Positions 41,028 through 60,093 of a stretch of 64,000 nt of DNA are shown here, piece after piece. Origin of the DNA: Chloroflexota bacterium (GTDB lineage Bacteria > Chloroflexota > UBA11872); assembly GCA_026707585.1 (NCBI GenBank), contig JAPOWQ010000053.1, forward strand, positions 62,001-126,000. Reading direction: 5' to 3'. The position numbers were made by a program, and so were the translations under genes. How positions within the stretch are numbered: the stretch's first letter is position 1; every line of letters begins with the position of its first letter. Below the pieces are notes generated by a model, which was not told the origin of the DNA, ran no database searches, and was given only the letters and a program-made list of their open reading frames with translations.

Positions 41028-42398
41028 CTAGGCCGCAACCCAGCGATAGCTGTAGAGGCTGGCGCTTTGCATTTTCACCCGCAGCAGCACTTCCCCATCC
41101 GCCTGCGGCGGAACCACCGCCCCACCCCGCCACGCCACCTCCACCTCAACCGAGTTCAAAGACGAGAACCGGCAGTCGTCGGCCGCGAATCCTTTGATCG
41201 GCTCACCCCGAACCGACAGCACCTCAACCGAAGCCGTTCCGGTCTCGGCCCGCAGATTCAGCGACAACCGACGCGCCTCCCGCGCGTCCAGCGGCCCGCA
41301 CACCATGGAGCCGCCAAACATCTCGCCTTCCATCGAGACGAAGCCGTCCCGCCGTATGGTTGCGATCCCAAAGGCCCGCCGGTGAAGATCCGCGGCTCCG
41401 TGATGGGTGCAGGTTCCGGCGTACCAGAATCGCAGCCGGTCGCCCAACGGCTCCGGCGGCGTGCTCGCCAGCATGATCCAGTGCGAGTCCCACGCGCCCT
41501 CACCGCCCAGCGGCATCACGGGTCGTCGCCCGGCAACGCGCCTCCATCGGCGTGCGTCCTCGCTCCAGGCCAACTGCACGTCCAGCGTCTCGTCGTCCGT
41601 GTGATAGACCTCGATGAACCCCAGGTATCCCCGCCCATAGGCCGCCGGGAACATGCTGTAGAACTCCGTGCCGGCGGGATCGTCATCGTCCGGCCACAGC
41701 ATCCGCCCGTGATGTGTCCAGGTCAGCAGATCCGGACTTTCCCACAGATCCATGTCGCGCTTGAGCCCCCGCACACCTGCCTGCCGCTGCACGCTCAGGT
41801 GCCGGTGACGCGTCAGCAACATGCACGTCTGTCGCCGCGGATCCCAGGCCAGCTGCATCCGATCTCCCTGGCCCGGCAGCGTCGGCTCGCCGTCCACCGT
41901 CCAATGCAATCCATCGTCCGAAACGCCCCGAAACATCCCCCGCCCAGTCGGCGTACCGTCCGAATCTCGCCGCACCTGGTAGGTCATCGCCTGGTAGCGA
42001 GGTCCGGGAACGCGGTCCAGCAGCGTCAGCAACGTCTGCGTCGAACCCCGCTCCCAAGGCAATACAACATTCGTGCGCGTTCCGTCCGGCAGCGCATACA
42101 CGTCGAGTTCCGGCTTCTCCCACTCCACGCCGTCCGCGGAGATCGCCACACAGACGCCGTGAGACCTCGAACCCTCCGGATGCGCCACATACAGCATCTT
42201 GTAGTGGTCGGCCGCGTCGTCATGGACAACCGAGATCCATCCGCCCTGCCATGCCGACTCCCACGGCCGATCGCCAACCAGCACCGGCTCCTGCTCGCGC
42301 CGCAGCGTATTAACCCGCCGCCCAATCCCCTCGCGCGCCAAAACCTCGGCATCGTCAATGAACAGGTGAAGGTCGTCGTCTACGAGGTCTGGAATCAT
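41028..42398 (-). CDS. Glycosidase-like beta-propeller protein 1
   Basis: 456-residue protein with repeated blades of the type YKMLYVAHPE, VCVAISADGVEWEKPELDVY, GVSDDGLHWTVDGEPTLPG and DMDLWESPDLLTWTHHGRML, typical of five-bladed glycosyl hydrolase families (GH32/43/68-like clan). A C-terminal beta domain follows (SVEVLSVRGEPIKGFAADDC). It has no signal peptide at ATG 42398, so it is probably cytoplasmic. An actual hydrolase activity is unproven. It is divergent from the paralogue at 42484, with an 85-base shared promoter region. Confidence 0.72.
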   Translation of the reverse strand: MIPDLVDDDLHLFIDDAEVLAREGIGRRVNTLRREQEPVLVGDRPWESAWQGGWISVVHDDAADHYKMLYVAHPEGSRSHGVCVAISADGVEWEKPELDVYALPDGTRTNVVLPWERGSTQTLLTLLDRVPGPRYQAMTYQVRRDSDGTPTGRGMFRGVSDDGLHWTVDGEPTLPGQGDRMQLAWDPRRQTCMLLTRHRHLSVQRQAGVRGLKRDMDLWESPDLLTWTHHGRMLWPDDDDPAGTEFYSMFPAAYGRGYLGFIEVYHTDDETLDVQLAWSEDARRWRRVAGRRPVMPLGGEGAWDSHWIMLASTPPEPLGDRLRFWYAGTCTHHGAADLHRRAFGIATIRRDGFVSMEGEMFGGSMVCGPLDAREARRLSLNLRAETGTASVEVLSVRGEPIKGFAADDCRFSSLNSVEVEVAWRGGAVVPPQADGEVLLRVKMQSASLYSYRWVAA

Positions 42399-42483
42399 CA
42401 GGACCGCCTGCACTCACGCTGGTCAGCGCATCGTACCCAGCGTCCCCGCCACCGCCGACAATTCCAGGCGCCGGGCACCGCGC

Positions 42484-44034
42484 GTGCGCTCCAGTCGGTA
42501 CCATGCGCGCCAGTACGTGTCAGCAGAATCCGAGGGGCTCCACATCGATACCACGGCCGGTCAGCGCGACGGACTCCTTCTTCTCGACAACATCGAATCG
42601 ACCTATCACCTCTCGCACAGGGTCTGCGAGGCCGACAAGCACCCCAACAACCCGGTAATGCCGCTGGGCGACCTGCACGAGTGGGACGCCAACCAGGCAA
42701 GACCCTGGTCGTCTCCAACGGTCATCTGGGACGACGAGGACCGCGTCTTCAAGGCCTGGTACTCAGGATCCGACCTGGCGCCCGAAAAGTGGACCGCCAT
42801 GGGATACGCAACCAGCCAGGACGGCGTCACCTGGGAAAAGCCGCACCTGCATCTCTATTCCTGGCGGGGCTCGACGGCGAACAACATCGTCGCGCTCGGT
42901 TATGGCCCGGTGCTCAAGGACAACGCCGAGCCAGACCCGGCCAAGCGCTACAAGATGTTCAAGCGCGGTCCTCGCCTGCGCACCGACGACGCCATCACCG
43001 CGCCGGTACCAGACTACAAGGGATCTCGGGCCAACTACTCCCCGGACGGCATCCACTGGATCGCGGGTCCCAAGATCGACATCCCCGAATGGGAGGGTCG
43101 CAGCCCCGACTGCGGGAACCTGATCCGCGACGATCAGGACCCTGACCCGTCACGTCGCTTCAAGCTTATATGGCAAGCCCGAACCCCGTTGAGCAGACCG
43201 GACAAGCCCTGGGGCCGAGCCAAGCTGCTCGCCTACGGCCCCGACATGGTGAACATCCGCAACGCCGACGAAAACCCGCTGCTGGACCCCGATGACGGGG
43301 TCGAGTACGAAAACCACCACGTCTTGTATGCCCCCTACGGCGGCGCATGGGCCATGGCATACGAATACGGCTGGTACGTGCCCAATGGCTACGGGATCTA
43401 CGGCTCGTACTGCGCCGACATTCGCCTGGCGGTCAGCGGCGACGGACTGCGATTCGATCGTCTCGACGTTGAGCAACCGGTCATCCCGCGCGGCCGCAAC
43501 GACGAGTGGGACGGCGGCCTGCTGGTCATCGCCGACAAGCCGGCTATCAAGGATGGAACGATTCACCTGTTTTACGGCGGCAACGGCGAAGAGTGGACCA
43601 GCTGGCCCGGCGAGAACACCCCGGATGAATACCCGTTCGCGAGCACCGGCCAGGTACGAGTCTCACGCTTCGGCGTCGCCACCCTGCGCCAGGACGGCTT
43701 CACCTGCCTGGAGACACCGGACCGCGAGGTCCCAGGGTTTGCCGTCACCAAACCCATCGAGCGCAGCGATGCGTCAACCCAACTCACGTTGAACATCGGC
43801 GATGTCCGCCAAAACCGCAGCTGGATTGAAGTCGAAGTCCTCGACGCAACGACGGACCAGCCGTTTTCCGGCTACAGCCGAGAGGACTGTCGCGACCTTT
43901 GCACCGATGGCTGGCGCCAGCCCGTGACCTGGAGTGGCGGCGGCATCGGCAACATTCCGTCCGGCCGCTTCAAGCTCCGTTTCTGGCTCTACGGCGCCGC
44001 CCGGCTCTACGCCTACGGGTTCGAACCCGGGTGA
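42484..44034 (+). CDS. Glycosidase-like beta-propeller protein 2
   Basis: 516-residue relative of the divergent 41028-42398 gene. It shares propeller blades (VFKAWYSGSDLAPEKW, GYATSQDGVTWEKPHLHLY, SRANYSPDGIHWIAGPKID) and the C-terminal beta domain (EVEVLDATTDQPFSGYSRED). The catalytic acidic residues cannot be assigned by eye. No signal peptide is visible. GTG 42484 is the first start in frame. Given the neighbours (enolase-family enzyme, hydroxyacid dehydrogenase, sulfatase) it may process an oligosaccharide or sulfated sugar. Confidence 0.72.
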   Translation: MRSSRYHARQYVSAESEGLHIDTTAGQRDGLLLLDNIESTYHLSHRVCEADKHPNNPVMPLGDLHEWDANQARPWSSPTVIWDDEDRVFKAWYSGSDLAPEKWTAMGYATSQDGVTWEKPHLHLYSWRGSTANNIVALGYGPVLKDNAEPDPAKRYKMFKRGPRLRTDDAITAPVPDYKGSRANYSPDGIHWIAGPKIDIPEWEGRSPDCGNLIRDDQDPDPSRRFKLIWQARTPLSRPDKPWGRAKLLAYGPDMVNIRNADENPLLDPDDGVEYENHHVLYAPYGGAWAMAYEYGWYVPNGYGIYGSYCADIRLAVSGDGLRFDRLDVEQPVIPRGRNDEWDGGLLVIADKPAIKDGTIHLFYGGNGEEWTSWPGENTPDEYPFASTGQVRVSRFGVATLRQDGFTCLETPDREVPGFAVTKPIERSDASTQLTLNIGDVRQNRSWIEVEVLDATTDQPFSGYSREDCRDLCTDGWRQPVTWSGGGIGNIPSGRFKLRFWLYGAARLYAYGFEPG

Positions 44035-45370: not shown

Positions 45371-46390
45371 ATGACCAAGATCCTGGTAACCGTTCCCGAA
45401 CTCGAAGGCTCTTCTGACGCGATCGAGGAGATCCGCAGTGTCTCGCCCGACCTTGAGATCGAACAGCGGACCTGCCGCTCGAACCCGGAACTCACCGAGC
45501 TTCTCGGCGATGCCGAGATCCTCTACACCCACTGGTTTCCCACTCAACTCGAACCTGACGCGAGCCTCCGCTGGCTGCAGATGACCTCGACCGGTGTCGA
45601 TAACAAGATCTCGAATCCGGTTTTCGATCCGGCAAACGGTGTCACCGTAACCAGCGCCGCCGGCTGCCACGCTGTCCCAATCGGCGAATACTGCATCTTC
45701 GCCATGGGCCTTTTGGCACGCGGCCTGCTTGGTTTCTACCGCGACCAGCAGCAGAAGGTCCGCAACCGCGCGCACAGCACGCTTACCGATCTCACCGGAC
45801 TGACCGTAGGCATCGTGGGTTACGGGCAGATCGGTCGGCATGTGGCCCGCCTGTCCCAAGCGTTCAACATGCGAGTCCTGGCCAGCAAGCGCAATCCCGA
45901 CGTGCGCCAGGTGAGCGGGATGGACTTCCCGAACGTCGGCGACCCTACGGCCAGCCTCCCGGAGAGGATCGTGGGACCGGATGGCTTGCCGGAGCTCCTG
46001 GCAGAGGCCGACTTCGTCGTCTCGACAGTGCCGCTGACGTCCGAGACTGCGGGTCTGTTTGACGAGTCAGCTTTCCGGGCCATGCGGCGCGACGCCTACT
46101 TCATCAACGTCAGCCGAGGTGGAGTCGTCGATCACGACGCCCTGGTTCGGGCCTTGCAGAGCGGTGAAATCCGCGGCGCCTGCCTTGACGTTCTGCATAC
46201 GGACCCGAATCCGTTGCCCCCCGAGAACCCGCTCTGGGATCTTGACAACGTATTCATCACGCCGCATGTTTCCGGCAATCGAAACGCCGCCTACATGCGG
46301 CGCGCCCAGGATCTCTTCCTCGAGAACCTCAAGCGCTACCTTGCCGGCGAGCCACTGCTGAACGTCGTGACTCGCGACAAGGGTTACTAG
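45371..46390 (+). CDS. D-isomer-specific 2-hydroxyacid dehydrogenase
   Basis: 339-residue NAD-dependent dehydrogenase. The NAD motif is VGIVGYGQIGRHVA (about residues 143-156). Catalytic parts are SRGGVVDHDALVRAL with the Arg (about 245), and LDVLHTDPNPLPPENPLWDLDNVFITPHVSG with the Glu and His (about 270-298). It interconverts 2-keto and 2-hydroxy acids, and downstream of an enolase-family dehydratase it may reduce the keto acid formed. ATG 45371 follows AGGAGG (45356-45361) with good spacing. Convergent and overlapping by 4 bases with the sulfatase gene. Confidence 0.9.
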   Translation: MTKILVTVPELEGSSDAIEEIRSVSPDLEIEQRTCRSNPELTELLGDAEILYTHWFPTQLEPDASLRWLQMTSTGVDNKISNPVFDPANGVTVTSAAGCHAVPIGEYCIFAMGLLARGLLGFYRDQQQKVRNRAHSTLTDLTGLTVGIVGYGQIGRHVARLSQAFNMRVLASKRNPDVRQVSGMDFPNVGDPTASLPERIVGPDGLPELLAEADFVVSTVPLTSETAGLFDESAFRAMRRDAYFINVSRGGVVDHDALVRALQSGEIRGACLDVLHTDPNPLPPENPLWDLDNVFITPHVSGNRNAAYMRRAQDLFLENLKRYLAGEPLLNVVTRDKGY

Positions 46391-48060
46391 CTCAGCAGCA
46401 GGTCCTCCGGCCAGTAGTACTGGCCATGAGCCCCGATGTGCGCGTTCCGACTCTCCGGACCAAGCTCGCGAAGCCGCACGCGCCGCACATCGCTTGCGCC
46501 CGGGCTGCCGTGCGCGTACTCGATGGCTTGAGCTTCCTTCTCAACTGCGATCGTCTTACCGTTCGCGTCCGTGAATGCGTAAAGCACGGCATCCGGTCCG
46601 GCGATGAGCGGCGGCGACGTCGTGGGATTCGCCGTCGGCTGATCCTCGAATGCGCGGGCAAGTTCTGGCGGCGCGTGGTGCGCCTCCAGAAAGTCGAGCA
46701 GTTGATGCTGAAGTCGGCTGGCCACATCCGGATGCTCGTCCACGACGTTTCGCTGCTGGTCCGGATCGCTCTCCAGGTCATAAAGCTCGGATACGTGGCC
46801 TCGCGGCGATGCGATCAGTTGCCATTGCGCATTTGAGACGGTCAGCGGTTCGGGCAGGTCTTCCCGACCCACGAAGCCATCATGATCGGCGCCGCCAATC
46901 ACGCCGCTGGTCAGTAATCCGGGCGGAAACCGTCCGCTGAAGGCCGTAACGCGAGACCAGGCCGATTCGCCTGTGATGAGCGGCAGCAGTGACTCGCCGT
47001 CGATTCCGCCTGGCGGTTCCATGCCGAAGGCGTCGAGCACCGTCGCAAAGATGTCCACGTGCTGACACACCTCGCCGCGGCTCGAACCGGCGCCAATGCC
47101 TCCCGGGTGCCGGATAAACATCGGGCAGCGCACGTTCTGGTCATAGAGCCGTCCAAGTTGGCTGCCCGGCTTGCCCTGCAGGTCATGATCGCCCAACCCA
47201 TGGCCGTGATCGGTTAGCCAGATAACCAGCGTGTCGTCGGCGAGGCCCAGTGAATCCAGCTTCTCGAACAGGTGGCCGAGCCAGCGGTCCGTGTAGGTGC
47301 AGAGCGCGGCGTAGGACGCGCGAACGTGCGCGCGTTCGTCATCCGTCATGTAAGTCCCGCGCCCGTAGGCCGGATAGATCAGCCAATCGCCGTCGAAGTC
47401 TGGCGCCTCGTAGCGGGCCTGATCCGCCGGCGGCGCGTCGAACGGCTCGTGCGGATCCCACATGTCGATATAGAGGTAGAAGTCCTGGTGAGCCGCGTTG
47501 CGCTCCAGCCAATCCATGGACTCCAGAATCGACTTACCGGCCATCCATTCGGCCTCGTGGCGACGGTCCAGCACGTTTCGCAGGTAGGCCCTTACACCGA
47601 TGTGGTTCTTGTGCTTATGCGGAGCGCACGGTAGCCAGAGTTTCCCGGGATCGGTGCGCCAACTGTCGCCATGCTGGCCGCGCACTCGTTCCCAGCCCAT
47701 GAAACCTCGCTGGAAGTTGTAGCCGGCGGCCGTGAGTCCAGGGGTGTCGTGAATCAGCATGGTCGGATGGCCAGCCGAGTTCAGGATCTCCGCCAGCGTC
47801 AGGTCGTCTCGCTCCAGCGGTTGCCAGGGTCGAGTGGGAAACCCGAATCGGCCGGTCCACAGGTCATAGCGGGTGGGGATGGTCGGGTAGGAGCCGGCAT
47901 AGAAACGGTCGAACCTCACGGACTGGCGGGCGAAATCGTCCAGGTTCGGGGTATGGATGCGCCCGTGTCCGGTGCCCGGATTGGACCATGGCGCTTCCAG
48001 CCCGTAGGCCCCGACGTGGTCGCGTCGAAACGTGTCGTTCATGATCGTGATCACGTTCAT
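46387..48060 (-). CDS. Sulfatase-family hydrolase with Thr at the formylglycine position
   Basis: 557-residue protein of the alkaline phosphatase/sulfatase superfamily. It starts NVITIMNDTFRRDHVGAYG (metal-site Asp), has YLYIDMWDPHEPFDAP with the His, and WLTDHGHGLGDHDL with the second metal Asp/His. In true sulfatases the nucleophile is Cys or Ser in (C/S)xPxR followed by xxxxTG. Here the segment is TIPTRYDLWTG, so Thr60 stands at that position and cannot become formylglycine. It may be a Thr-nucleophile phosphodiesterase-like enzyme or an inactive relative. No signal peptide. It neighbours the lipoprotein array and dehydrogenase. Confidence 0.83.
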   Translation of the reverse strand: MNVITIMNDTFRRDHVGAYGLEAPWSNPGTGHGRIHTPNLDDFARQSVRFDRFYAGSYPTIPTRYDLWTGRFGFPTRPWQPLERDDLTLAEILNSAGHPTMLIHDTPGLTAAGYNFQRGFMGWERVRGQHGDSWRTDPGKLWLPCAPHKHKNHIGVRAYLRNVLDRRHEAEWMAGKSILESMDWLERNAAHQDFYLYIDMWDPHEPFDAPPADQARYEAPDFDGDWLIYPAYGRGTYMTDDERAHVRASYAALCTYTDRWLGHLFEKLDSLGLADDTLVIWLTDHGHGLGDHDLQGKPGSQLGRLYDQNVRCPMFIRHPGGIGAGSSRGEVCQHVDIFATVLDAFGMEPPGGIDGESLLPLITGESAWSRVTAFSGRFPPGLLTSGVIGGADHDGFVGREDLPEPLTVSNAQWQLIASPRGHVSELYDLESDPDQQRNVVDEHPDVASRLQHQLLDFLEAHHAPPELARAFEDQPTANPTTSPPLIAGPDAVLYAFTDANGKTIAVEKEAQAIEYAHGSPGASDVRRVRLRELGPESRNAHIGAHGQYYWPEDLLLS

Positions 48061-48126: not shown

Positions 48127-48384
48127 TTACTTCTTTGCGCCGGCTTCCTCGTTGGCAACCTTGGCCTGATACTGCTCCTGCAGTTTCATCAAGTCTTCGT
48201 GAGTGGCGGTCTTTCCACCGCCGCCGGCCCTTGCGCCCCGGACTTCATTGATCGCCCGGTCGCCGCTGATCTTGTAGTCAAAGTCACCGCCGCAGCCCGC
48301 GAGCAGCGAACCGACCAGCGCGGCCAGAAGCGATAGGCGTCCAACCAGGGCGCCACTGCGGCTTGGCTTTCCGTTCCCAAACAT
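48127..48384 (-). CDS. CGGDF small lipoprotein 1
   Basis: 85-residue lipoprotein, the last of five tandem paralogues on this strand. Signal peptide with lipobox LLAGC, then CGGDFDYKISGDR, a short linker and a Glu/Lys-rich helix HEDLMKLQEQYQAKV with an AGAKK tail. ATG 48384 is preferred to 48432 because it leaves a normal signal peptide. The mature part is only about 50 residues and should sit on the outer face of the membrane. No known family recognised. Confidence 0.7.
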   Translation of the reverse strand: MFGNGKPSRSGALVGRLSLLAALVGSLLAGCGGDFDYKISGDRAINEVRGARAGGGGKTATHEDLMKLQEQYQAKVANEEAGAKK

Positions 48385-48406
48385 TGCCGCTTGCCCCCCA
48401 ATCGCC

Positions 48407-48655
48407 CTACTTTTTGCCGGCCTCCGCCTCAAGCTTAGCTTTGTACTGCTCCTGGATGCTCATCAGGTTCTCGTGCGACGCCGTCGACGCGCCATAAAAC
48501 TCGCCGGTGTTGGCGCGAGTCTCTCCCTGTAGGCGGTCGCCGCTGGTCTTGTACTCGAAGTCTCCGCCACAGCCTGCCAGGAGCACGGCCGCCAACGCGA
48601 CCAAGACTGTCCGCAGAAGCGAGCCTCGAACCATTCCGCGTAACCGCCTGTCCAC
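48407..48655 (-). CDS. CGGDF small lipoprotein 2
   Basis: 82-residue lipoprotein paralogue with lipobox LLAGC, CGGDFEYKTSGDR, and the tail HENLMSIQEQYKAKLEAEAG. The start is GTG 48655 or ATG 48634. It is separated from its neighbours by about 15-25 bases, so the array is probably one transcript. Its tail is closest to that of copy 5. Confidence 0.72.
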   Translation of the reverse strand: MDRRLRGMVRGSLLRTVLVALAAVLLAGCGGDFEYKTSGDRLQGETRANTGEFYGASTASHENLMSIQEQYKAKLEAEAGKK

Positions 48656-48670
48656 TGGGTCTCCTCCGGA

Positions 48671-48931
48671 CTATTTCTTGCCGGCCTCGGCTTCGACCTT
48701 CGCCTTGTATCGCTCCTGGAGCTTCAGCACATCCTCGTGAGAGCTCGTGGACAGGGCTCCAAACTCCCCAGTTCCCGTGCGCGTTTCGTTCGCGGGGCGC
48801 TCACCGCTGATCTTGTAATCGAAATCACCTCCACAACTCGCGGCGAGCGCGGCAATCATGGCCGCCGCAAGCATTGCCCCAACCCTACGAAGCTTGCGAC
48901 TGAGGTACGTCTGCAACTGGGGCCTCGTCAC
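48671..48931 (-). CDS. CGGDF small lipoprotein 3
   Basis: 86-residue paralogue with lipobox LAASC, CGGDFDYKISGER and the tail HEDVLKLQERYKAKVEAEAG. The signal peptide starts with a basic segment (YLSRKLRR) and an Ala-rich core. The Ala/Ser at the lipobox differs slightly from the others but keeps the Cys. Confidence 0.72.
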   Translation of the reverse strand: MTRPQLQTYLSRKLRRVGAMLAAAMIAALAASCGGDFDYKISGERPANETRTGTGEFGALSTSSHEDVLKLQERYKAKVEAEAGKK

Positions 48932-48949
48932 AATGACACCCCCTTCCTC

Positions 48950-49225
48950 CTACCGCTGCCCACTCTCGGCCTTCATCTTGGCCTGGTACTGCTCCTGGAT
49001 GCTCTTCATTTTCTCGTCCGACGCTGTGGACGCTCCGCCCAGGCCGGCGGCATCCGGATTGTTGAACTCGCTGGGCCCAACCTTATCCTCGCTCGTGCGG
49101 TCACCGCTAGTCTTGAATTCGAAATCCCCGCCGCAGCCCGCCAGCAACGCGGCACCGATAAGAGCCAGGAGGGGCGCACAGCGAAGCCAACGCCAGATGC
49201 TGCGCCACGCGCCTGATTGGTGCAT
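48950..49225 (-). CDS. CGGDF small lipoprotein 4
   Basis: 91-residue paralogue with lipobox LLAGC, CGGDFEFKTSGDR and the most divergent tail, DEKMKSIQEQYQAKMKAESG, with Asp in place of the His of the other copies. It has a longer linker between the two conserved parts (DKVGPSEFNNPDAAG). ATG 49225 is preferred over 49264, whose extra residues precede the basic start of the signal peptide. Confidence 0.7.
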   Translation of the reverse strand: MHQSGAWRSIWRWLRCAPLLALIGAALLAGCGGDFEFKTSGDRTSEDKVGPSEFNNPDAAGLGGASTASDEKMKSIQEQYQAKMKAESGQR

Positions 49226-49250
49226 TATCCATCGGCCCCCTTTGGCCGAC

Positions 49251-49490
49251 CTACTTCTGCCCACTCTCGGCCTTCACCTTGGCCTGGTACTGCTCCTGGA
49301 TGCTCATCAGGTTTTCGTGAGAGGTTGTCGAGGCGCCATCCCAGTCGGCGACTCCGGCGCGGTTCTCGCCGTCGATCCGATCGCCGCTGGTCTTGTATTC
49401 GAAGTCGCCGCCACATGCCGTCAGCAGGGCAGCGACCACCCCCGCGGCCACCGTTAGGCCTCGGCGCTTGATGGAGCAACTGACACGCAT
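49251..49490 (-). CDS. CGGDF small lipoprotein 5
   Basis: 79-residue paralogue, first in the direction of transcription. Lipobox LLTAC, CGGDFEYKTSGDR, then the tail HENLMSIQEQYQAKVKAESG. It lies about 150 bases after the stop of the solute-binding protein gene at 49647, beyond a strong hairpin, so the array likely has its own promoter between 49491 and 49580. Confidence 0.72.
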   Translation of the reverse strand: MRVSCSIKRRGLTVAAGVVAALLTACGGDFEYKTSGDRIDGENRAGVADWDGASTTSHENLMSIQEQYQAKVKAESGQK

Positions 49491-49646: not shown

Positions 49647-51140
49647 CTAGGCCGTTCGCCCCCAGCGCTCGATTCGTTCGTTCAACAAGTCGATGTCCTG
49701 CGCCAGGATGCGGTCACCCTCGGCTATGGCCTTCTCGATGGCCTCTTCCACCGATGCGTCGCCGGTCATAGCCGTGTGAGCAATCCCGCGCCAGGCCAAC
49801 CACTCGATCTGGTTGGGGTGGTAGCCCTGCCAAGTTCGGAACTCGCCGCGGACAAACGAGACCAGCAGGTCCTGCCGCTCCGGCGGCGCGGCCAAATTCT
49901 CCGGCGACTCCAGCGCGTCCCATCGGCAGGGGAGGAAGCCACGGTCAGTGGCAGCCCGCGCCTGCATCTCGGGGCCCGCCATCCAGACCAGGAAGTCCAC
50001 GACTGGCTCAACCACGCCCTGGCGGGCCGCCGAGTCGATAACGTAGTGCCCCTGATTGGTGCGATGCACGGCCACCGTGCCGGTCACGTCACCCTTCGGC
50101 TGCGGTGCCAGCGACCATCGGAAACGGTCGCTGATGCCCCCAATGAGGAAGCCCTTAGCGTCGCCGCGGCGCAACTCGGCGCCGACCTTACCGGCCGTAA
50201 AGAGGTCGCCAAACTCACCCGACAACTCGCGCTGCGCTTCGGTCGGCGCCGAGACCTTGTGCTTGTGAATAAGGTCAACCCCGAACTTGAAGCCCTGATC
50301 GCCACCGTCGTCAAACTGACTGGTGTGCGTGCCGTCAGGCGAGATGTACTGCTTGCCACCGAAGCCCCAGCCAATCGGCGTCCAGAAGTGGATGTCGCCA
50401 CCACCTGAGATCCGGGTACCCCAGATTCCGTTGTCCGGGTCGGTGGACTGCTTGGCCGCCTCAAGCCACTCGTTGCTGTACGTCCAATCGGCCGACGGCT
50501 CCGGAACACCGTATTGGTCATACAGATCAATGTTGTAGTAGTGGCCGCTCACGTTGCCCTGGTACGGCAACCCGAACGCGTGCCCCTGGAACGAATCGAC
50601 GAACGGGTAGTCAAGGTCATAGTTGATCGTGTAAGAGTCCGGCTCGAAGATCAGGTCGGCCCCATTGAAGGTGGGGTGGCGGTCCAGCACGTCGTTGATC
50701 TGGTGAAACGAATCTTGATGGGCGCCGAAGAAGTTCCAACTCAACAACGCCGCAGCCGGGGCGCTGCCCGCCGCGATGCGAATCGCGAACGTCTCGAAAA
50801 ACAGGTCCTCCTGCGGTGTGAACTTGATCCTGATATCGGGCCGTGCCTGCGCGAAGTTGGCGAGCGCCCAGGTGGTGGACTTTCCGCGCACGCCAGAGAC
50901 GTGGTCGCTGATGAACTCGAACTCCACCGTCTCTGCCTGAGGCGCCGCCATCGCCTCTGTCGCCACCTTCTCAGCGGCGACAGGGGCTGCCTGGGTCACT
51001 TCCTGTTGAGCTGCTTGCGTGACGCTCGGCTCGACGGCCTCGGACTCGCCACACGCCGCCAGCGCGGCCGCGCCCGCGGCGCCGATTCCAAGTGCCGAAG
51101 TCGCCGTCAGAAATCGCCGTCTTGTCAGATTGCGGACCAT
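49647..51140 (-). CDS. Tat-exported ABC transporter solute-binding lipoprotein A (sugar type)
   Basis: 497-residue solute-binding protein of the ABC sugar (family 1) type. The N terminus has the twin-arginine signal LTRRRFLTATSALG and lipobox LAAC (about residue 30), followed by a Gln/Ala/Thr-rich linker. Conserved segments include KSTTWALANFAQARPDI, VLDRHPTFNGADLIF and VHRTNQGHYVIDSAARQG. It should capture an extracellular sugar-like ligand. ATG 51140 has GGGAGGGGAG just upstream. It is a close paralogue of the next gene; no permease or ATPase genes are nearby. Confidence 0.87.
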   Translation of the reverse strand: MVRNLTRRRFLTATSALGIGAAGAAALAACGESEAVEPSVTQAAQQEVTQAAPVAAEKVATEAMAAPQAETVEFEFISDHVSGVRGKSTTWALANFAQARPDIRIKFTPQEDLFFETFAIRIAAGSAPAAALLSWNFFGAHQDSFHQINDVLDRHPTFNGADLIFEPDSYTINYDLDYPFVDSFQGHAFGLPYQGNVSGHYYNIDLYDQYGVPEPSADWTYSNEWLEAAKQSTDPDNGIWGTRISGGGDIHFWTPIGWGFGGKQYISPDGTHTSQFDDGGDQGFKFGVDLIHKHKVSAPTEAQRELSGEFGDLFTAGKVGAELRRGDAKGFLIGGISDRFRWSLAPQPKGDVTGTVAVHRTNQGHYVIDSAARQGVVEPVVDFLVWMAGPEMQARAATDRGFLPCRWDALESPENLAAPPERQDLLVSFVRGEFRTWQGYHPNQIEWLAWRGIAHTAMTGDASVEEAIEKAIAEGDRILAQDIDLLNERIERWGRTA

Positions 51141-51241
51141 TGCGCTCCCCTCCCTGTGTGCGCCAGTCCGCAACCGCGGCAGCGCTTCGCGCCGAAATTG
51201 TAAACGTTCGAAGGGGAGCCATGCGAAGTTGCGCTGCCATA

Positions 51242-51278
51242 GCATTCGGGCGCGGTCTGCAAGACCGCGCCCGAATGC
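51242..51278. terminator. Strong hairpin after solute-binding protein gene B
   Basis: A 17-base perfect stem (GCATTCGGGCGCGGTCT and its complement) with a GCA loop, 35 bases past the minus-strand stop at 51313. The core is the same as at 49581-49607, and the flanking bases (CTGTGCGC, CCTAACCGACTAGGC) are also duplicated. Confidence 0.75.
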
Positions 51279-51312: not shown

Positions 51313-52827
51313 CTAGGCGGTGCGTCCCCAGCGCTCGATGCGCTTGTTCAGCAAGTCCACGTCCTGGCGAAGGATGCGGTCACCTTCGTTCACGGCGCTC
51401 TCGATGGCCTCTTCAACCGACGCCTCGCCGGTCATGGCCAGGTGGGCGCGGCCGCGCCAGGCCAACCACTCGCGCTGGTTCGGGTGATAACCCTGCCAGG
51501 TGCGGAATTCGCCGCGAACGAACGAGACCAGGAGGTCCTGCCGCTCCGGCGGCGCCGCCAGGTTCTCCGGCGACTCCAGTGCGTCCCAACGACAAGGCAG
51601 GAACCCGCGGTCGGTCGCTGCGCGCGCCTGCATCTTGGGCCCGGCCATCCAGACCAGGAAGTCCACGACCGGCTCAACCACGCCCTGTCGTCGCGCCGAG
51701 TCAATGACGTAGTGCCCCTGGTTGGTGCGATGCACGGCCACGGTGCCGGTCACGTCGCCCTTCGGCTGCGGCGCCAGCGCCCAGCGGAAGCGGTCGCCGA
51801 TGCTGATCACGGCGTTGCCCTTGGCGTCGCCACGTCGCAATTCGGCCCCGATCTTGCCGGCTGAGAAGGCGTCGCCGAACTCGCCCGCCAACTCGCGCTG
51901 CGCGTCCGTCGCGGGCGAGACGCCGTGCCTGTGGATGAGGTCTACCGCGAACTGGAAGCCCCGGTCCCCACCGTTGTCAAAGTGCTCCGTGTGCGTGCCG
52001 TCGGACGAAATGAACTGCTTCGCGCCGAAGCCCCAGGAAATGGGCGTCCAGTAGTGGATGTCGCCACCGCCGCCGATCCGGGTTCCGTAAATCTCGTTGT
52101 CCGGGTCGGTTGCCTGCTTGGCGGCGTCCAGCCACTCGTTGCTGTACGTCCAGTCCGCCGATGGCTCCGGCACGCCGTACTGGTCGTACAGGTCAATGTT
52201 GTAGTAGTGGCCGCTGACGTTGCCCTGGTATGGCAGACCGAAGGCGTGCCCCTGGAAGGAGTCCACGAACGGCCAGGTCGTGTCGTAGTTGATCGTGTAG
52301 GAGTCTGGCTCGTAAATCAGGTCGGCCCCATCGAAGTCCGGGTGGCGGTCCAGCACGTCGTTGATCTGGACAAACGAGTCCTGATGGGAACCAAAGAATC
52401 CCCAACTCAGCAGCGCCGTCGCCGGGGCACTACCCGCGGCGATGCGGATGCCGAACGAGTCGTCAAAGCCGCCGCCCTGCGGCGTGAACTTGATCTTGAT
52501 GTCGGGCCGTTCCGCCTGGAAGTTGGCCAGCGCCCAGGTGGTGGACTTGCCGCGCACGCCGGACACGTGGTCGCTGACGAATTCGAACTCAACCGTCGTT
52601 GGCTGAGGCGCCGCCATCGCCTGCGTGACGACCTTTTCAACAACGACCTGGACTTCCTTGGTCACTTCCTTGATGACTTCCTCTTCGACCACCTGCGTGA
52701 CGATCTTCTCGACGACCTTGGTTTCACCACAAGCAGCCAAGGTGGCCGCGCCGGCGACGCCAACTCCAAGCGCCGAACTCGCCTTGAGAAATCGCCGTCG
52801 TGTCAGATCTCGAGCCATCTGCCTCAT
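51313..52827 (-). CDS. Tat-exported ABC transporter solute-binding lipoprotein B (sugar type)
   Basis: 504-residue paralogue of gene A, differing mainly in the linker and scattered residues. The Tat signal is LTRRRFLKASSALG, the lipobox LAAC (about residue 33), and the linker is a Val/Glu/Lys coiled repeat (VVEKIVTQVVEEEVIKEVTK). Such linkers are common in solute-binding proteins of Chloroflexota and may hold the protein away from the membrane. ATG 52827 or 52818 start. Having two tandem copies suggests related ligands and a shared permease elsewhere. Confidence 0.87.
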   Translation of the reverse strand: MRQMARDLTRRRFLKASSALGVGVAGAATLAACGETKVVEKIVTQVVEEEVIKEVTKEVQVVVEKVVTQAMAAPQPTTVEFEFVSDHVSGVRGKSTTWALANFQAERPDIKIKFTPQGGGFDDSFGIRIAAGSAPATALLSWGFFGSHQDSFVQINDVLDRHPDFDGADLIYEPDSYTINYDTTWPFVDSFQGHAFGLPYQGNVSGHYYNIDLYDQYGVPEPSADWTYSNEWLDAAKQATDPDNEIYGTRIGGGGDIHYWTPISWGFGAKQFISSDGTHTEHFDNGGDRGFQFAVDLIHRHGVSPATDAQRELAGEFGDAFSAGKIGAELRRGDAKGNAVISIGDRFRWALAPQPKGDVTGTVAVHRTNQGHYVIDSARRQGVVEPVVDFLVWMAGPKMQARAATDRGFLPCRWDALESPENLAAPPERQDLLVSFVRGEFRTWQGYHPNQREWLAWRGRAHLAMTGEASVEEAIESAVNEGDRILRQDVDLLNKRIERWGRTA

Positions 52828-53009
52828 CCTTCCCTCGGTACGCCAACCCGCCAAGGCGGGATCAACGCCGCAGTCTATACCAACGTGGCGGCTCCGCCCA
52901 ACTGTTGTGACGGTCGATGTGCGATACACATAGTGAGGGGACCTGGGGCAAGCGGGAACCTCCGCAAAGTCCCTTGAGAACCACCAGCGGCAGAGGATTC
53001 AGTCCGGTA

Positions 53010-54823: not shown

Positions 54824-55636
54824 ATGGGCGGTGAAGGCAAGAGCGACTTGACGAACTCGCGGCCCATCCTGCAGGTGCGAAGCGTGACGAAAGACTTCGG
54901 CGGAGTTCGCGCGGTTGATCGCTGTAGCCTGGACGTGATGCCGGGCACGATCACCGGACTGATCGGGCCCAACGGAGCTGGTAAAACCACGCTCTTCAAT
55001 CTGGTAGGTGGCGCGCTCGCCCCGACCAACGGGCAGATCCTCTTTGAGGGACAGGCCATCGGCGGGCTGCGGCCTCACCAAACGTTCGCGCGCGGCCTGA
55101 TGCGCACGTTCCAGATCCCCAGGGAGTTGAAACGCATGACCGTGCTGGAGAATCTGATGCTGGTGCCTGCGCGGCAATCCGGCGAGCGACTCTGGTCAAC
55201 CTGGCTGACGCCGTGGAGAGTCGCGCGCGAGGAGCGCCGTATCCAGGCACGGGCGCTGGATACGCTGGAGTTCGTCAATCTCGTGCATCTGGCGAACGAA
55301 CTGGCCGGCAATCTGTCGGGTGGACAGAAGAAGCTGCTGGAGTTGGCGCGAACGCTGATGGCCAAGCCCAAGATGGTGTTGCTTGACGAACCGGGAGCCG
55401 GGATCAACCGAACGCTTCTTCGCAATCTCTCCGCCAACATCGTGCGGGCTAGTGTCGAGCGAAACGTCACGTTCCTGATCATCGAGCACGACATGCGCTT
55501 TGTGATGACGATGTGCGATCCGGTGATCGTCATGGCCAACGGATCCGTGATTTCCGAAGGTACACCGTCGGCGATACAGCGCAACCCACAAGTGCTGGAA
55601 GCCTATCTGGGCGGTCGGATCAGTGGCGCTGCTTAA
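54824..55636 (+). CDS. livG: Branched-chain amino-acid-type ABC transporter ATPase LivG
   Basis: 270-residue ATPase. Walker A GPNGAGKTT (about residues 48-56), signature LSGGQKKLLELART (about 165-178), Walker B MVLLDEP (about 185-191), and the LivG-specific helical insert between the Walker A and signature regions (GLMRTFQIPRELKRMTVLEN). It powers uptake of branched-chain amino acids or similar small ligands with LivF. ATG 54824 is preceded by a GGATGGGCGG-like context with weak SD. It overlaps livF by 14 bases. Confidence 0.93.
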   Translation: MGGEGKSDLTNSRPILQVRSVTKDFGGVRAVDRCSLDVMPGTITGLIGPNGAGKTTLFNLVGGALAPTNGQILFEGQAIGGLRPHQTFARGLMRTFQIPRELKRMTVLENLMLVPARQSGERLWSTWLTPWRVAREERRIQARALDTLEFVNLVHLANELAGNLSGGQKKLLELARTLMAKPKMVLLDEPGAGINRTLLRNLSANIVRASVERNVTFLIIEHDMRFVMTMCDPVIVMANGSVISEGTPSAIQRNPQVLEAYLGGRISGAA

Positions 55637-56327
55637 GGCATCCAACGTCGTTGCCGGATACGGCGGGACGGAAATCCTCCACGGCGTTTCGATCAAGGTG
55701 AACGCGGGCGACGTCGTCACGATCATCGGACCCAACGGCTGCGGAAAGTCAACGCTTATGAAGGCGATTGTCGGTCTGGTGTCGGTTTGGGCCGGCTCGG
55801 TGCACTTTCGCGGTGTCGACATTTCCGATCAAGACCCGGAGCAGACCGTGCGCAACGGGCTCTGCTACGTGCCTCAGACGGACAACGTCTTTCCATCCAT
55901 GACGATCCGCGAAAATCTCGAGATTGGCGCGTTCGTGAGGCGTGACAATCACCAGTTCCGCATTGACGAGATGTTTGACCTGTTTCCCGATCTACGACGC
56001 AGCGCACGTCGAAAGGCGGGAACCCTCTCGGGCGGACAGCGGCAGATGTTGGCGATTGCCAGAGCGCTAATGCTTGACCCAGTACTTCTGCTCCTCGACG
56101 AACCGACCGCCGGTCTGGCGCCTGCCCTGGTGGAAGGCGTGTTCAAGCGAATTCAAGACATCAACAGCACGGGCGTAGCCATTCTCCTGGTCGAACAGAA
56201 CGCCAGGGATTCGCTGCGCATGTCCGATCGTGGCTACGTGCTCTCGGGCGGCGTCAATCAGCTCCAGGACACTGGACCGGCCTTGCTTGACAATCCCGAG
56301 GTTGGCCGCGTGTATCTCGGCGGCTAG
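55623..56327 (+). CDS. livF: Branched-chain amino-acid-type ABC transporter ATPase LivF
   Basis: 234-residue ATPase. Walker A GPNGCGKST, signature LSGGQRQMLAIARALM, Walker B LLLLDEPTAGLAPAL, then the His loop VEQNAR. It lacks the insert of LivG, as is usual for LivF. GTG 55623 lies inside the livG 3' end. The stop is followed 11 bases later by livH. Confidence 0.92.
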   Translation: MALLKASNVVAGYGGTEILHGVSIKVNAGDVVTIIGPNGCGKSTLMKAIVGLVSVWAGSVHFRGVDISDQDPEQTVRNGLCYVPQTDNVFPSMTIRENLEIGAFVRRDNHQFRIDEMFDLFPDLRRSARRKAGTLSGGQRQMLAIARALMLDPVLLLLDEPTAGLAPALVEGVFKRIQDINSTGVAILLVEQNARDSLRMSDRGYVLSGGVNQLQDTGPALLDNPEVGRVYLGG

Positions 56328-56337
56328 GACGAGTCTC

Positions 56338-57393
56338 ATGCATTCAGTCTCGTCTCAGCCACAGAATCTCGCCGGGCCCTCGCGGCGCTACCTGCGACGC
56401 CTTGGCCTCAGAATGTCGCCGGGCCGCATCTCTGCCCTGCTCGCGGCTGGACTCCTGACCTTGGGTTTCCTGCCCTTCATCAAGTTAGGGCTCGTCGTCA
56501 ACGGGCTGATCCTTGGATCTGTGATCGCCCTGGGCGCGATCGGGCTGACGCTCGTCTACGGAATCCTGAAGCTTGGAAACTTTGCTCACGGAGACTATAT
56601 GGCGTTGGGCGCCTACGTAGCCTTTTTCATCGTCGACGGCGTGCTGCCGCGAGTTGGCATCGAAGGCGCAGGGCTGGGGCCCTTCACGTTTGGCTTCCCG
56701 GTACTGATCGCCCTGCCTCTCGCAGCCGTGGTTGTTGCACTCGGAGCCATCGCGCTCGACTGGTTGATTTACCGCCGACTGAGGGACCGAGCGGCGAGCA
56801 CCGCCATCCTGATGATGGCGTCGCTGGGCGTGGCGATCGCCATTCGGGGGCTTGTGCAACTGATTTGGTCAGGCGAAACGCAGCACTATCCGCGAGAGTC
56901 GCGACAGGTCTATCACCTGCCAATGGACGTGCGCATTCCACCCGATGGCCTATTTGTCGCGGTCCTCGCGGTAATCCTGGTAGCCGGGGTCTATGCCCTA
57001 CTCACATATACAAAGATTGGTAAGGCCATGCGGGCAACCTCGGACAATCCGACGCTCGCGCTCGTGTCCGGAATCAACACCGGGCGGGTTGTCTGGTGGA
57101 CGTGGGGGATAGGTGGTGCTCTCGCCGCGGTCGCTGGAGTCCTACTGGCGGTCGTACAGGCGCAGTTGCTTCCCATCATGGGCTGGAAGTTTCTGATTCC
57201 GCTGTTTGCCGCAGTGATCCTCGGCGGAATCGGCAACCCCTACGGGGCGCTCATCGGAGCCCTGATTGTTGGCGTGAGTATGGAGCTGTCTACCCAGTGG
57301 ATCAATCCCAGCTATAAACCGGCGGTAGCGTTCGCCATCATGATCGGCGTCCTGCTGGCACGCCCCCGCGGCATCTTTGGCGACGCACTGTAG
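56338..57393 (+). CDS. livH: Branched-chain amino-acid-type ABC transporter permease LivH
   Basis: 351-residue permease with about eight transmembrane helices. The N-terminal 40 residues are basic (RRYLRRLGLRMSPGR). Conserved segments are LTLVYGILKLGNFAHGDYMALGAY and the cytoplasmic EAA-like loop KIGKAMRATSDNPTLA, which contacts the ATPases. The longer open frame upstream to 56230 runs through livF and is rejected; ATG 56338 gives a normal LivH start. Confidence 0.93.
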   Translation: MHSVSSQPQNLAGPSRRYLRRLGLRMSPGRISALLAAGLLTLGFLPFIKLGLVVNGLILGSVIALGAIGLTLVYGILKLGNFAHGDYMALGAYVAFFIVDGVLPRVGIEGAGLGPFTFGFPVLIALPLAAVVVALGAIALDWLIYRRLRDRAASTAILMMASLGVAIAIRGLVQLIWSGETQHYPRESRQVYHLPMDVRIPPDGLFVAVLAVILVAGVYALLTYTKIGKAMRATSDNPTLALVSGINTGRVVWWTWGIGGALAAVAGVLLAVVQAQLLPIMGWKFLIPLFAAVILGGIGNPYGALIGALIVGVSMELSTQWINPSYKPAVAFAIMIGVLLARPRGIFGDAL

Positions 57394-57405
57394 TTGATCA
57401 GCGGC

Positions 57406-58422
57406 ATGGACATTGGCGGAGTCATCGACTATCTGATCGGCTTCGCGATCATGGCAATGATCTACGCAGTCTTCGCATTGGGACTCAATGTTCACTGGGG
57501 ATTCACCGGCCTGTTCAATATCGGTATCGCCGGTTTCTTCGCGCTCGGTGCCTACACGGCGGCACTTCTGACATCACCGCCACCGGACCCGGATCAGTTT
57601 GAGGACTTCATCTTCGGCGGCAATCTTGCAAATCACGGCCTGCTTGATCTGGGCGTGGATGCGTGGTTCCTTCTGGGTCTAGCGGCGGCGGCCCTGGTTT
57701 GCGGGCTTGTCGCCCTGATAATCGGCACGATCACGCTGCGGTTGAACGACGACTACTTGTCGATCGCCACGCTCGGAATCGCCGAGAGCGTCCGCTTCTT
57801 TTTCCTGAACGAGAAGTGGGCCGCCAACGGCTCAAAAGGGCTCTACCGCATTCCCAAGTTCTTGGGCGACGTCGTCGCGCCCGAGAGCTACGACTATCTC
57901 TACGTCGTCGTCGTGCTCGTCGTCATGCTCATCCTCTTCGCCGCTGTGCAGCGTGCGGTCCGGTCGCCGTGGGGCCGCGTGCTTCGTGCCATCCGCGAGG
58001 ATGAAGTCGCGACGGCTGCCAGCGGAAAAAATGTCTTTCACTTCAAGCTTCAGGCATTCGTTCTCGGGTCCATGGTCATGGGAATCGGCGGCGCGCTGTT
58101 CGCCCATCACGTTCGATTCCTCTCGCCGCTGACCTTCGATCCCTTACTTGCAACGTTCGTGATTTGGGCAATGCTCATGGTGGGCGGATCGGGCAACAAT
58201 CTCGGCGCGATTCTGGGGGCCTTCGTGGTGTGGGGCGTTTGGGCCGGCACCCAGTTTCTCCCCGGTGTTCTCTCCGATCCGAGTTTTCGCCTTCTCATGA
58301 TCGGCGTTCTCATCGTCACCATCATGCTGCTGCGGCCGGGCGGGCTGTTGGGCGAGTGGCGGCGAATTGTTGAGCGTCGCCCAGCTTCGGTGGCCGGTCG
58401 GGATCCAGCCGGGCCGGATTAG
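57406..58422 (+). CDS. livM: Branched-chain amino-acid-type ABC transporter permease LivM
   Basis: 338-residue permease with about nine helices. Typical LivM segments are WGFTGLFNIGIAGFFALGAYT, LNDDYLSIATLGIAE and the coupling loop SPWGRVLRAIREDEVAT. The C terminus contains GGLLGEWRRI. Start choice is between TTG 57394 and ATG 57406; ATG is used. livGFHM are contiguous; the partner solute-binding gene lies convergently just downstream. Confidence 0.93.
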   Translation: MDIGGVIDYLIGFAIMAMIYAVFALGLNVHWGFTGLFNIGIAGFFALGAYTAALLTSPPPDPDQFEDFIFGGNLANHGLLDLGVDAWFLLGLAAAALVCGLVALIIGTITLRLNDDYLSIATLGIAESVRFFFLNEKWAANGSKGLYRIPKFLGDVVAPESYDYLYVVVVLVVMLILFAAVQRAVRSPWGRVLRAIREDEVATAASGKNVFHFKLQAFVLGSMVMGIGGALFAHHVRFLSPLTFDPLLATFVIWAMLMVGGSGNNLGAILGAFVVWGVWAGTQFLPGVLSDPSFRLLMIGVLIVTIMLLRPGGLLGEWRRIVERRPASVAGRDPAGPD

Positions 58423-58518
58423 CCGGGACCAGGTTGGCTGGCGCAATTGAGTCGCCAGGCCAGGGCGGGACGGTCAAGCTCCACCGGCACCTGATTGCGG
58501 GTGCCGGGAAGACATCGA

Positions 58519-58546
58519 CCAGGGGCGGCCGTGGGGCCGCCCCTGG
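58519..58546. terminator. Bidirectional terminator-like hairpin between livM and livK
   Basis: CCAGGGGCGGCC-GTGG-GGCCGCCCCTGG, a 12-base perfect stem with a GTGG loop. It lies between the convergent genes, 97 bases past the livM stop and 24 bases past the livK stop. TGTTTGT follows on the plus side. Confidence 0.75.
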
Positions 58547-58569
58547 GTGTTTGTGCGAAGTGGTGCGAA

Positions 58570-59985
58570 CTAGGGGAGTTCGAACCTTCCGGTGGACTTG
58601 ACGGCGTCGCCTTCGACCGTCCAGACCTCGATTGGTCCGGCTACGTCGCCGTTTTCGTCGAAGTCCACAGGGCCGGAGGCGCCCTCGTAGTTGATGTCCT
58701 GGCCGCTGGCGATGAGGCTCAGAGCCTTTTGGATTCCCGCCAACCCGGGGCCCACGACTTCGCCGGGCGGGTTCGCGACATCGCGCAGCGCGTCGCGGAT
58801 GGCAACGGAATCTGTTGTAGTCCCAGCCTTGGCGGCTGCCAGCGCAATCAGCACGACGGCGTCGTACGTCTCGGCCAGGTACGGCTCCTGAGGGGCTTCA
58901 ACACCGAAGGTCAAGGTGTAGGCGTTGTAAAAGGCCTGGCGATCGGGGCTGTCAGGGGCTCCGGGCGCTGTGCCAAGCGTGCCGTCCAGCTTGCCGCCGC
59001 CAATGGCCTGGACCATGTCGTCGGACTTCACACCGTCCACGAACAGGAACGTGTCCGCGTAGTCGCCTTCCAGGGCCTCGCGGAGGTAGATCTCCGCCTG
59101 GCCGGGATAGCTGACGGTGACTAGGACGTCCGGGTTGCCCTCAGTGGCCTTCTCGAGTTCAGACGTGAACGTCGGCTGGCTGTCCTCGTGCGGTACCGAA
59201 GCCGTGACCGTCCCGCCCAACTCGGTAAAGGTCTGGGTGAATCGTTCGGCCAGGCCCTGCCCGTAGGCGTTGTTGATGTACATGATCCCGGCGCTCTTGT
59301 AGCCCTGCTCCCAGGCCAGCCGGCCGAGCACAACGCCTTGCGCTGCGTCCGAAACGGTTGTGCGGAAGAGGAAGTCGTCGTCTTCAAGCGCGGTGATACT
59401 GGGCGCCGTGGACGAGTGCGAGATCTGAAGCGTCTTGTTCGGAGCGGTTACCGAGGTGGCCACGGGGATGGTCACGCCGCTGGCCAACGCGCCAACGATT
59501 GCCGCCACGCTTTCAACGTCCACGAGCGCACGGGCCGCATCAACGCCCTGCACGGGGTTCACGCCCGTGTCGCGGTTGATGATGACCACGGAGCCGCCCT
59601 GGATTCCGCCGGCGCGGTTGATGTGGCTGGCGGCAAGGTCAGCCGCGTTGCCGTGGGAAACGCCGAAGTAGGAGAGCGATCCGGTAAGCGCATTGAGGTG
59701 CCCGATGACCAGCGGTGGCAGCATCTGGGCTTCCTGCATGACCTCGACGGTTACCTGCCGGACAACCTCGACCGGCTTCTCGACCTCGACAACCCGGACG
59801 ACTTCCTGGACGACCGGCTTTTCGACTTCGACCGTGACCAGCTTCTCGACTTCGACCGTGACTTGTCGCTCGACCTCGACGGTCCTGACGACTTCGCTGG
59901 GAGCGTCGCTGGTCTCACCGCATGCGGCCAAGACGAAGGCGAACACGGCGATCAGTACAAACGCGATTCTGAGACCTCTAAACAT
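58570..59985 (-). CDS. livK: Branched-chain amino-acid-type solute-binding lipoprotein LivK-like
   Basis: 471-residue solute-binding protein. The N terminus is a lipoprotein signal with lipobox LAAC (Cys about 23). A Val/Glu repeat linker follows (VVEVEKPVEVVRQVTVEV, about residues 35-85). The binding domain shows IGHLNALTGSLSYFG, VVIINRDTGVNPVQG, IVGALASGVT and DFLFRTTVSDAAQG, typical of Leu/Ile/Val-binding or urea/amide-binding proteins. It faces livGFHM, so it is the probable receptor of that transporter. ATG 59985 has GGAGGAG ending 6 bases upstream. Confidence 0.9.
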   Translation of the reverse strand: MFRGLRIAFVLIAVFAFVLAACGETSDAPSEVVRTVEVERQVTVEVEKLVTVEVEKPVVQEVVRVVEVEKPVEVVRQVTVEVMQEAQMLPPLVIGHLNALTGSLSYFGVSHGNAADLAASHINRAGGIQGGSVVIINRDTGVNPVQGVDAARALVDVESVAAIVGALASGVTIPVATSVTAPNKTLQISHSSTAPSITALEDDDFLFRTTVSDAAQGVVLGRLAWEQGYKSAGIMYINNAYGQGLAERFTQTFTELGGTVTASVPHEDSQPTFTSELEKATEGNPDVLVTVSYPGQAEIYLREALEGDYADTFLFVDGVKSDDMVQAIGGGKLDGTLGTAPGAPDSPDRQAFYNAYTLTFGVEAPQEPYLAETYDAVVLIALAAAKAGTTTDSVAIRDALRDVANPPGEVVGPGLAGIQKALSLIASGQDINYEGASGPVDFDENGDVAGPIEVWTVEGDAVKSTGRFELP

Positions 59986-60093
59986 CAACTTCTCCTCCCA
60001 CGGCCAGTGCGTCCGTGTGAATGACTAAAGGCACCGGACGTTTACATCCGGCAGGGCCAAATCTACTGTGCAAGTGACGCGCGCGCCTAGCGA

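Follow-up and report, generated by a model that had tools for sequence, protein, structure and literature searches.

Very small lipoproteins are known in several settings: LptM is a small lipoprotein helper of LptD, and toxin, lysis, entry-exclusion and entericidin systems include small lipoproteins, sometimes in tandem. The array of five tandem micro-lipoprotein genes described here (p1 to p5), which lies in a window of 64,000 nucleotides of Chloroflexota DNA (the whole stretch that was analysed), can be set beside each of these. Its products are, like LptM, very small lipoproteins for which we propose a role in assisting a larger partner, but they score far below the LptM model cut-off and the proposed partner is a solute-binding protein (SBP) rather than an outer-membrane protein. 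They share with Braun's lipoprotein (Lpp) a lipid anchor, a mature part of about 55-60 amino acids and a helical C-terminal part, whereas their family has no conserved C-terminal lysine and only mature residues 33-51 are predicted to be helical. Short tandem lipoprotein genes are also a feature of entericidins and other tandem small lipoproteins, from which p1 to p5 differ in lacking a Pfam match, in the greater length of their mature parts, in their conserved core and in their catabolic setting. Finally, the neighbouring SBPs are of the SBP_bac_1/SBP_bac_8 type, as are the family-1 SBPs of CUT1-type ABC importers, but the SBP set to which they belong lacks PF00528 permease genes next to it and is accompanied by micro-lipoproteins. 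Published work on sponge-associated Chloroflexi has reported expanded carbohydrate use and arylsulfatases (PMC6306507, in which the word "lipoprotein" does not occur), and a search of the literature on orphan SBPs with small lipoproteins found nothing relevant.

The locus is arranged as follows, with the array read in the order p5-p4-p3-p2-p1.

46387..48060, minus strand: sulfatase with no visible signal peptide, 66 nt after p1
48127..48384, minus strand: p1, micro-lipoprotein, 85 aa (mature part CGGDFDYKISGDRAINEVRGARAGGGGKTATHEDLMKLQEQYQAKVANEEAGAKK)
48407..48655, minus strand: p2, micro-lipoprotein, 82 aa, GTG start, helix predicted at mature residues 33-51
48671..48931, minus strand: p3, micro-lipoprotein, 86 aa, GTG start, fused to p2 in four-gene arrays
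48950..49225, minus strand: p4, micro-lipoprotein, 91 aa, with a longer linker
49251..49490, minus strand: p5, micro-lipoprotein, 79 aa, first gene of the array
49647..51245, minus strand: SBP2, lipid-anchored family-1/8 solute-binding protein with a twin-arginine-type signal and LAAC lipobox, 156 nt before p5
51313..52929, minus strand: SBP1, paralog of SBP2 (81% identical) and founder query for the permease-less SBP set

A sequence-only reading of this DNA had described five adjacent lipoprotein genes of 79-91 codons with a CGGDF core at 48127-49490, next to a sulfatase-like gene and two SBP genes, and we recovered the open reading frames, their lipoboxes and these neighbours there. Intergenic gaps within the array are 15-25 nt, and Shine-Dalgarno-like sequences precede p2, p3 and p5, with weak ones at p1 and p4. 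In all five proteins and their orthologs the signal peptide closes with a lipobox whose Cys is invariant (lipidation is predicted, as read from the sequence). The mature parts measure 54-61 aa, the precursors are 44-55% identical to p1, and all five share the core C-G-G-D-F-(D/E)-(Y/F)-K-x-S-G-(D/E)-R, followed by a linker and then by a C-terminal segment in which Q, Y and K never vary.

As judged from comparative sequence evidence, p1 to p5 are translated, selected genes rather than chance ORFs, because their motif is confined to the arrays and a singleton and their mature dN/dS is low. Across the 13 genomes of the genus, CGG(D/E)(F/Y)(D/E)(F/Y)K occurs only in the arrays and in one unlinked singleton gene (a reversed-pattern control gave 0 matches). 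Each slot is orthologous throughout the genus, p5 resembling p5 everywhere and likewise the other slots, with mean mature dN/dS between orthologs of 0.036 (p5), 0.094 (p4), 0.060 (p2), 0.050 (p1) and, for p3, a noisy 0.33 that reflects very few substitutions. Orthologs are 93-96% identical in their mature parts and 48-89% in their signal peptides; pheromone-type signal peptides were rejected on the grounds that the signal regions vary more than the mature parts.

The array is also present in nine other Chloroflexota MAG records (we take these MAGs to be of sponge origin from their isolate names), while two genomes are unscorable for it, one with the SBP1 ortholog 0.5 kb from a contig end (G008) and one being 76% complete (G003). 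In three loci (L006, L009, L010) a fusion gene with the signal region of p3 and the mature region of p2 leaves the array with four genes; the two parts meet close to the Cys codon, in the stretch of greatest similarity between p2 and p3. This fusion is likely an unequal crossover that changed copy number and kept the mature protein. A complete chromosome of the genus (G002) carries three copies of the lipoprotein gene that are more divergent. At every array locus, including that of the divergent G002 chromosome, an order of one or two SBPs, three to five lipoproteins and a sulfatase is kept, to the contig limits.

Searches place p1 to p5, at the level of sequence, in a family that is without prior description, in line with the sequence-only reading, which had recognised no family. 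Pfam and NCBIfam gave sub-threshold matches only, mostly on the signal region, for p1 to p5 and for the wider set described below, and a PDB profile search found no relative (best E=0.48). The Entericidin Pfam model did not match p1 to p5 at E<=1 or the wider set at E<=0.1, the LptM model NF047847 gave 12.6-13.8 bits against a cut-off of 27.7, over the signal region only, and the TrbK entry exclusion model TIGR04359 gave 11.8-13.1 bits against a cut-off of 23. A search for viral relatives found none, and a plasmid search using the singleton gave no match. Array profile A1 found no relatives outside the genus among 48 genomes, and profile A2 gave weak matches in a sister genus and in family f2, mainly over the signal region. 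The earlier reading had allowed that the family might have no relatives anywhere; relatives exist, all of them in the genomes searched within this one genus of 13 genomes, and the genes are under selection. AlphaFold2 run on 32 sequences predicted one confident helix, at mature residues 33-51 (pLDDT about 82-86), and low confidence for the remainder. The short C-terminal helix previously noted is thus retained as a prediction, but it is not significantly amphipathic: the hydrophobic moment in ten members was no better than in shuffles, and an amphipathic membrane or coiled-coil helix was rejected accordingly.

The array belongs to a wider micro-lipoprotein set in the genus, whose members combine a Cys predicted to be lipidated with a short acidic/aromatic core and, in some cases, with a C-terminal helix that carries L/I-Q-x-x-Y-x-x-K. 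The array profile alone matched an 88-codon ORF at G000:C18 (E=6e-4; G000 is the genome of the window) and the N-terminal half of the unlinked singleton, profiles A2 and A3 brought in members at C20, C8 and C65, and with profile A4 the C65 locus yielded six strong matches to a second subfamily, C-G-[ED]..KPGGGY.FPG..KD..G.Y. Because the neighbour of the SBP at G002:1961590 and its counterpart in G009 (CGSRPALEKEGLAGGYKFPGARPSDSGYLSDEERAKLQSQFEG...) carry the Y-K-F-P-G core together with the helix motif, the two subfamilies may share a single architecture. Beside the permease-less SBP at C65:279130 lies a second tandem set of 6-7 micro-lipoprotein genes, mostly of the second subfamily, and the same small-gene set occurs at a locus of G005 (L084).

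L082 8460-13692 (G000:C65:276459-281691): second tandem set
L084 127-5255: the same small-gene set in G005

Tandem arrays therefore exist for two different subfamilies, so tandem expansion has happened at least twice. The sequence-only reading had asked whether arrays recur beside sulfatase, SBP or glycosidase genes: tandem arrays do recur beside SBPs, but the recurrent partner is a particular permease-less SBP set, and among the neighbours inspected a sulfatase was seen only at loci of the p1 to p5 array. The unlinked singleton (CGGEFEFKPSGSGRGQGVNYQQAPGSLYEATPTPSS, L045 5344-5454) is nearly invariant together with its genus-wide orthologs, one per genome, and adjoins a gene for a propeller-like enzyme.

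We evaluated the association with SBPs in a census, made with a home-made lipobox detector, of SBP loci and control stretches, where "permease-less" means no adjacent permease of PF00528, the one transporter family that the survey covered (as opposed to PF02653, secondary and other non-ABC types). SBP1 and SBP2 are SBP_bac_1/SBP_bac_8 proteins, and their PDB matches are sugar-binding proteins. The window's genome encodes 21 SBPs of the SBP1 set (34-100% identical to SBP1), none of them with a PF00528 permease within 3.7 kb, and all eight in G002 are free of one within 3 kb. A micro-lipoprotein lies within 5 kb at 10 of the 16 loci of this set in G000, the detector finding none at the other six, while 400 kb of control DNA from G000 gave seven detector matches, three of which we judged plausible, and the rest of the window added none. 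The resulting enrichment (P=1.5e-7 at the plausible rate of 3 in 450 kb, 5e-4 at the raw rate) is indicative only, because plausibility calls and distance limits were set after seeing the data. On the G002 chromosome four of the set's eight SBPs have a micro-lipoprotein within 600 bp. The detector made six matches in 240 kb of control DNA there, one of them clearly similar. Four further, low-scoring G000 SBPs (27-32% identity to SBP1) have permeases 0.3-0.6 kb away; none of these four has a micro-lipoprotein within 4 kb, and none was found beside permease-linked SBPs in G002 either.

When 34 SBPs of G000 and G002 were placed in a tree, the permease-linked ones, two of which are long branches, formed one group (support 80/97; one change, with 0 of 500 shuffles as low). 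Every micro-lipoprotein-linked SBP falls outside that group, and among the remaining SBPs the label is scattered, which is consistent with gains and losses or with missed detections. Two orthologous-looking micro-lipoprotein pairs were seen between G000 and G002: HGKFKLRSG/HGKFHLRSG, beside SBPs that neighbour each other in the tree, and RDNPFPY/RDDPFPY, whose G002 SBP is outside the tree. SBP and micro-lipoprotein genes of a pair are not always on the same strand, and the singleton at C74 and a member at C65:358518 lie away from permease-less SBPs. Among 400 genomes of the phylum, SBP1 matches above 200 bits occurred only in the genus (best elsewhere 102 bits), and no micro-lipoproteins were seen at seven SBP loci of other genera within flanks of 1.5 kb. 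Since the SBP set and the micro-lipoproteins are both confined to one genus in the genomes searched, they seem to have expanded together.

The metabolic surroundings are catabolic, with Pfam assignments at these loci to sulfatase, Gfo/Idh/MocA, BNR-repeat, GH42 and GHL10 proteins. Every array locus examined has the sulfatase after the array, and no sulfatase was among the neighbours inspected at other micro-lipoprotein loci. The enzyme is probably cytoplasmic, judging by the absence of a visible signal peptide, and as several other locus enzymes also start without one, the sugars would have to be imported. The window further encodes two glycosidase-type propeller-like proteins (41028-42413 and 42484-44034; no Pfam match at E<=0.01), and homologous-looking genes recur at micro-lipoprotein loci. 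A branched-chain amino-acid type ABC cassette (54824-59988; two ATPases, two permeases that are not PF00528, and an SBP on the other strand) lies a few kb from SBP1.

A dedicated role at the surface, for instance in capturing substrate or in display, may exist, as the sequence-only reading suggested. We tentatively propose, with a confidence that stops somewhat short of even, that the micro-lipoproteins are putative accessory subunits of lipid-anchored permease-less SBP receptors acting in glycan uptake. Export and lipidation would place p1 to p5 on the outer face of the cytoplasmic membrane, where the acidic/aromatic core near the lipid and the C-terminal helix with its invariant Q, Y and K could dock with the SBP itself, with its stalk or with a permease that serves many SBPs. 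Docked micro-lipoproteins might then help to cluster receptors or pass oligosaccharide to a shared permease, after which the imported sugar would be desulfated and degraded by the apparently cytoplasmic enzymes of the locus. What speaks for accessory subunits is the low mature dN/dS, the fixed SBP-array-sulfatase order, the enrichment beside permease-less SBPs, the second array and the confinement to one genus; the proposal is weakened by the six of 16 loci without a micro-lipoprotein, the mixed strands, the members away from SBPs and the scattered label in the tree.

An unlikely yet serious alternative is that these lipoproteins of glycan-use islands have a general role at the surface or in the envelope (as spacer, coat or adhesin) and that their SBP link reflects only shared location or regulation. 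A disordered N-terminal half with a single confident helix would suit such proteins, as would members remote from SBPs and gene pairs that are sometimes not co-directional, but in two genomes micro-lipoproteins lie within 600 bp of permease-less SBPs far more often than the background would give, and none accompany the permease-linked SBPs of similar islands. Linkage to one class of partner gene would instead fit folding or maturation helpers that keep the SBP stable, lipidated or placed, as LptM does for LptD, with no part in transport; small lipoproteins with such roles exist. We consider this improbable, since a chaperone would hardly seem to call for as many as five distinct conserved copies to serve one or two SBPs, and the LptM-model matches are sub-threshold and limited to the signal region.

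Peptidoglycan-attached spacers like Lpp, tied through a C-terminal lysine, are suggested by size, lipid anchor, C-terminal helix and the terminal Lys of p1, p2, p3 and p5, but the last residue of p4 is R or P, the G002 copies terminate in GGG, TPAT and APQ, and the helix spans the last third only. This Braun-type anchoring was rejected because the C-terminal Lys is not conserved, and we give it hardly any weight. The same very low standing goes to toxin, lysis, entry-exclusion or entericidin-like proteins: such systems do include small, sometimes tandem lipoproteins, but no family of this kind scored above its cut-off, viral relatives were not found, and the genes hold a fixed place in a catabolic locus.

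Should the micro-lipoproteins prove to be subunits of the receptors, SBP-dependent uptake would gain a new component, one whose role could be probed directly through the conserved core and helix. Proteins of this size are easy for gene callers to miss, and Pfam and NCBIfam have no entry for them. About twenty SBPs without adjacent permease genes in one genome raise the question of how these Chloroflexota import the complex sugars on which their enzymes act. A broader answer, which we hold as doubtful, would be a new kind of uptake module, in which permease-less lipid-anchored SBPs have radiated within this lineage, each equipped with tiny lipoprotein subunits of its own, and feed a shared transporter. 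Some SBP copies in G000 are split or contain internal stops (C36:62561-64218, C65:270032-273119 and C28:189843-191357), which suggests decay within the expanded SBP set.
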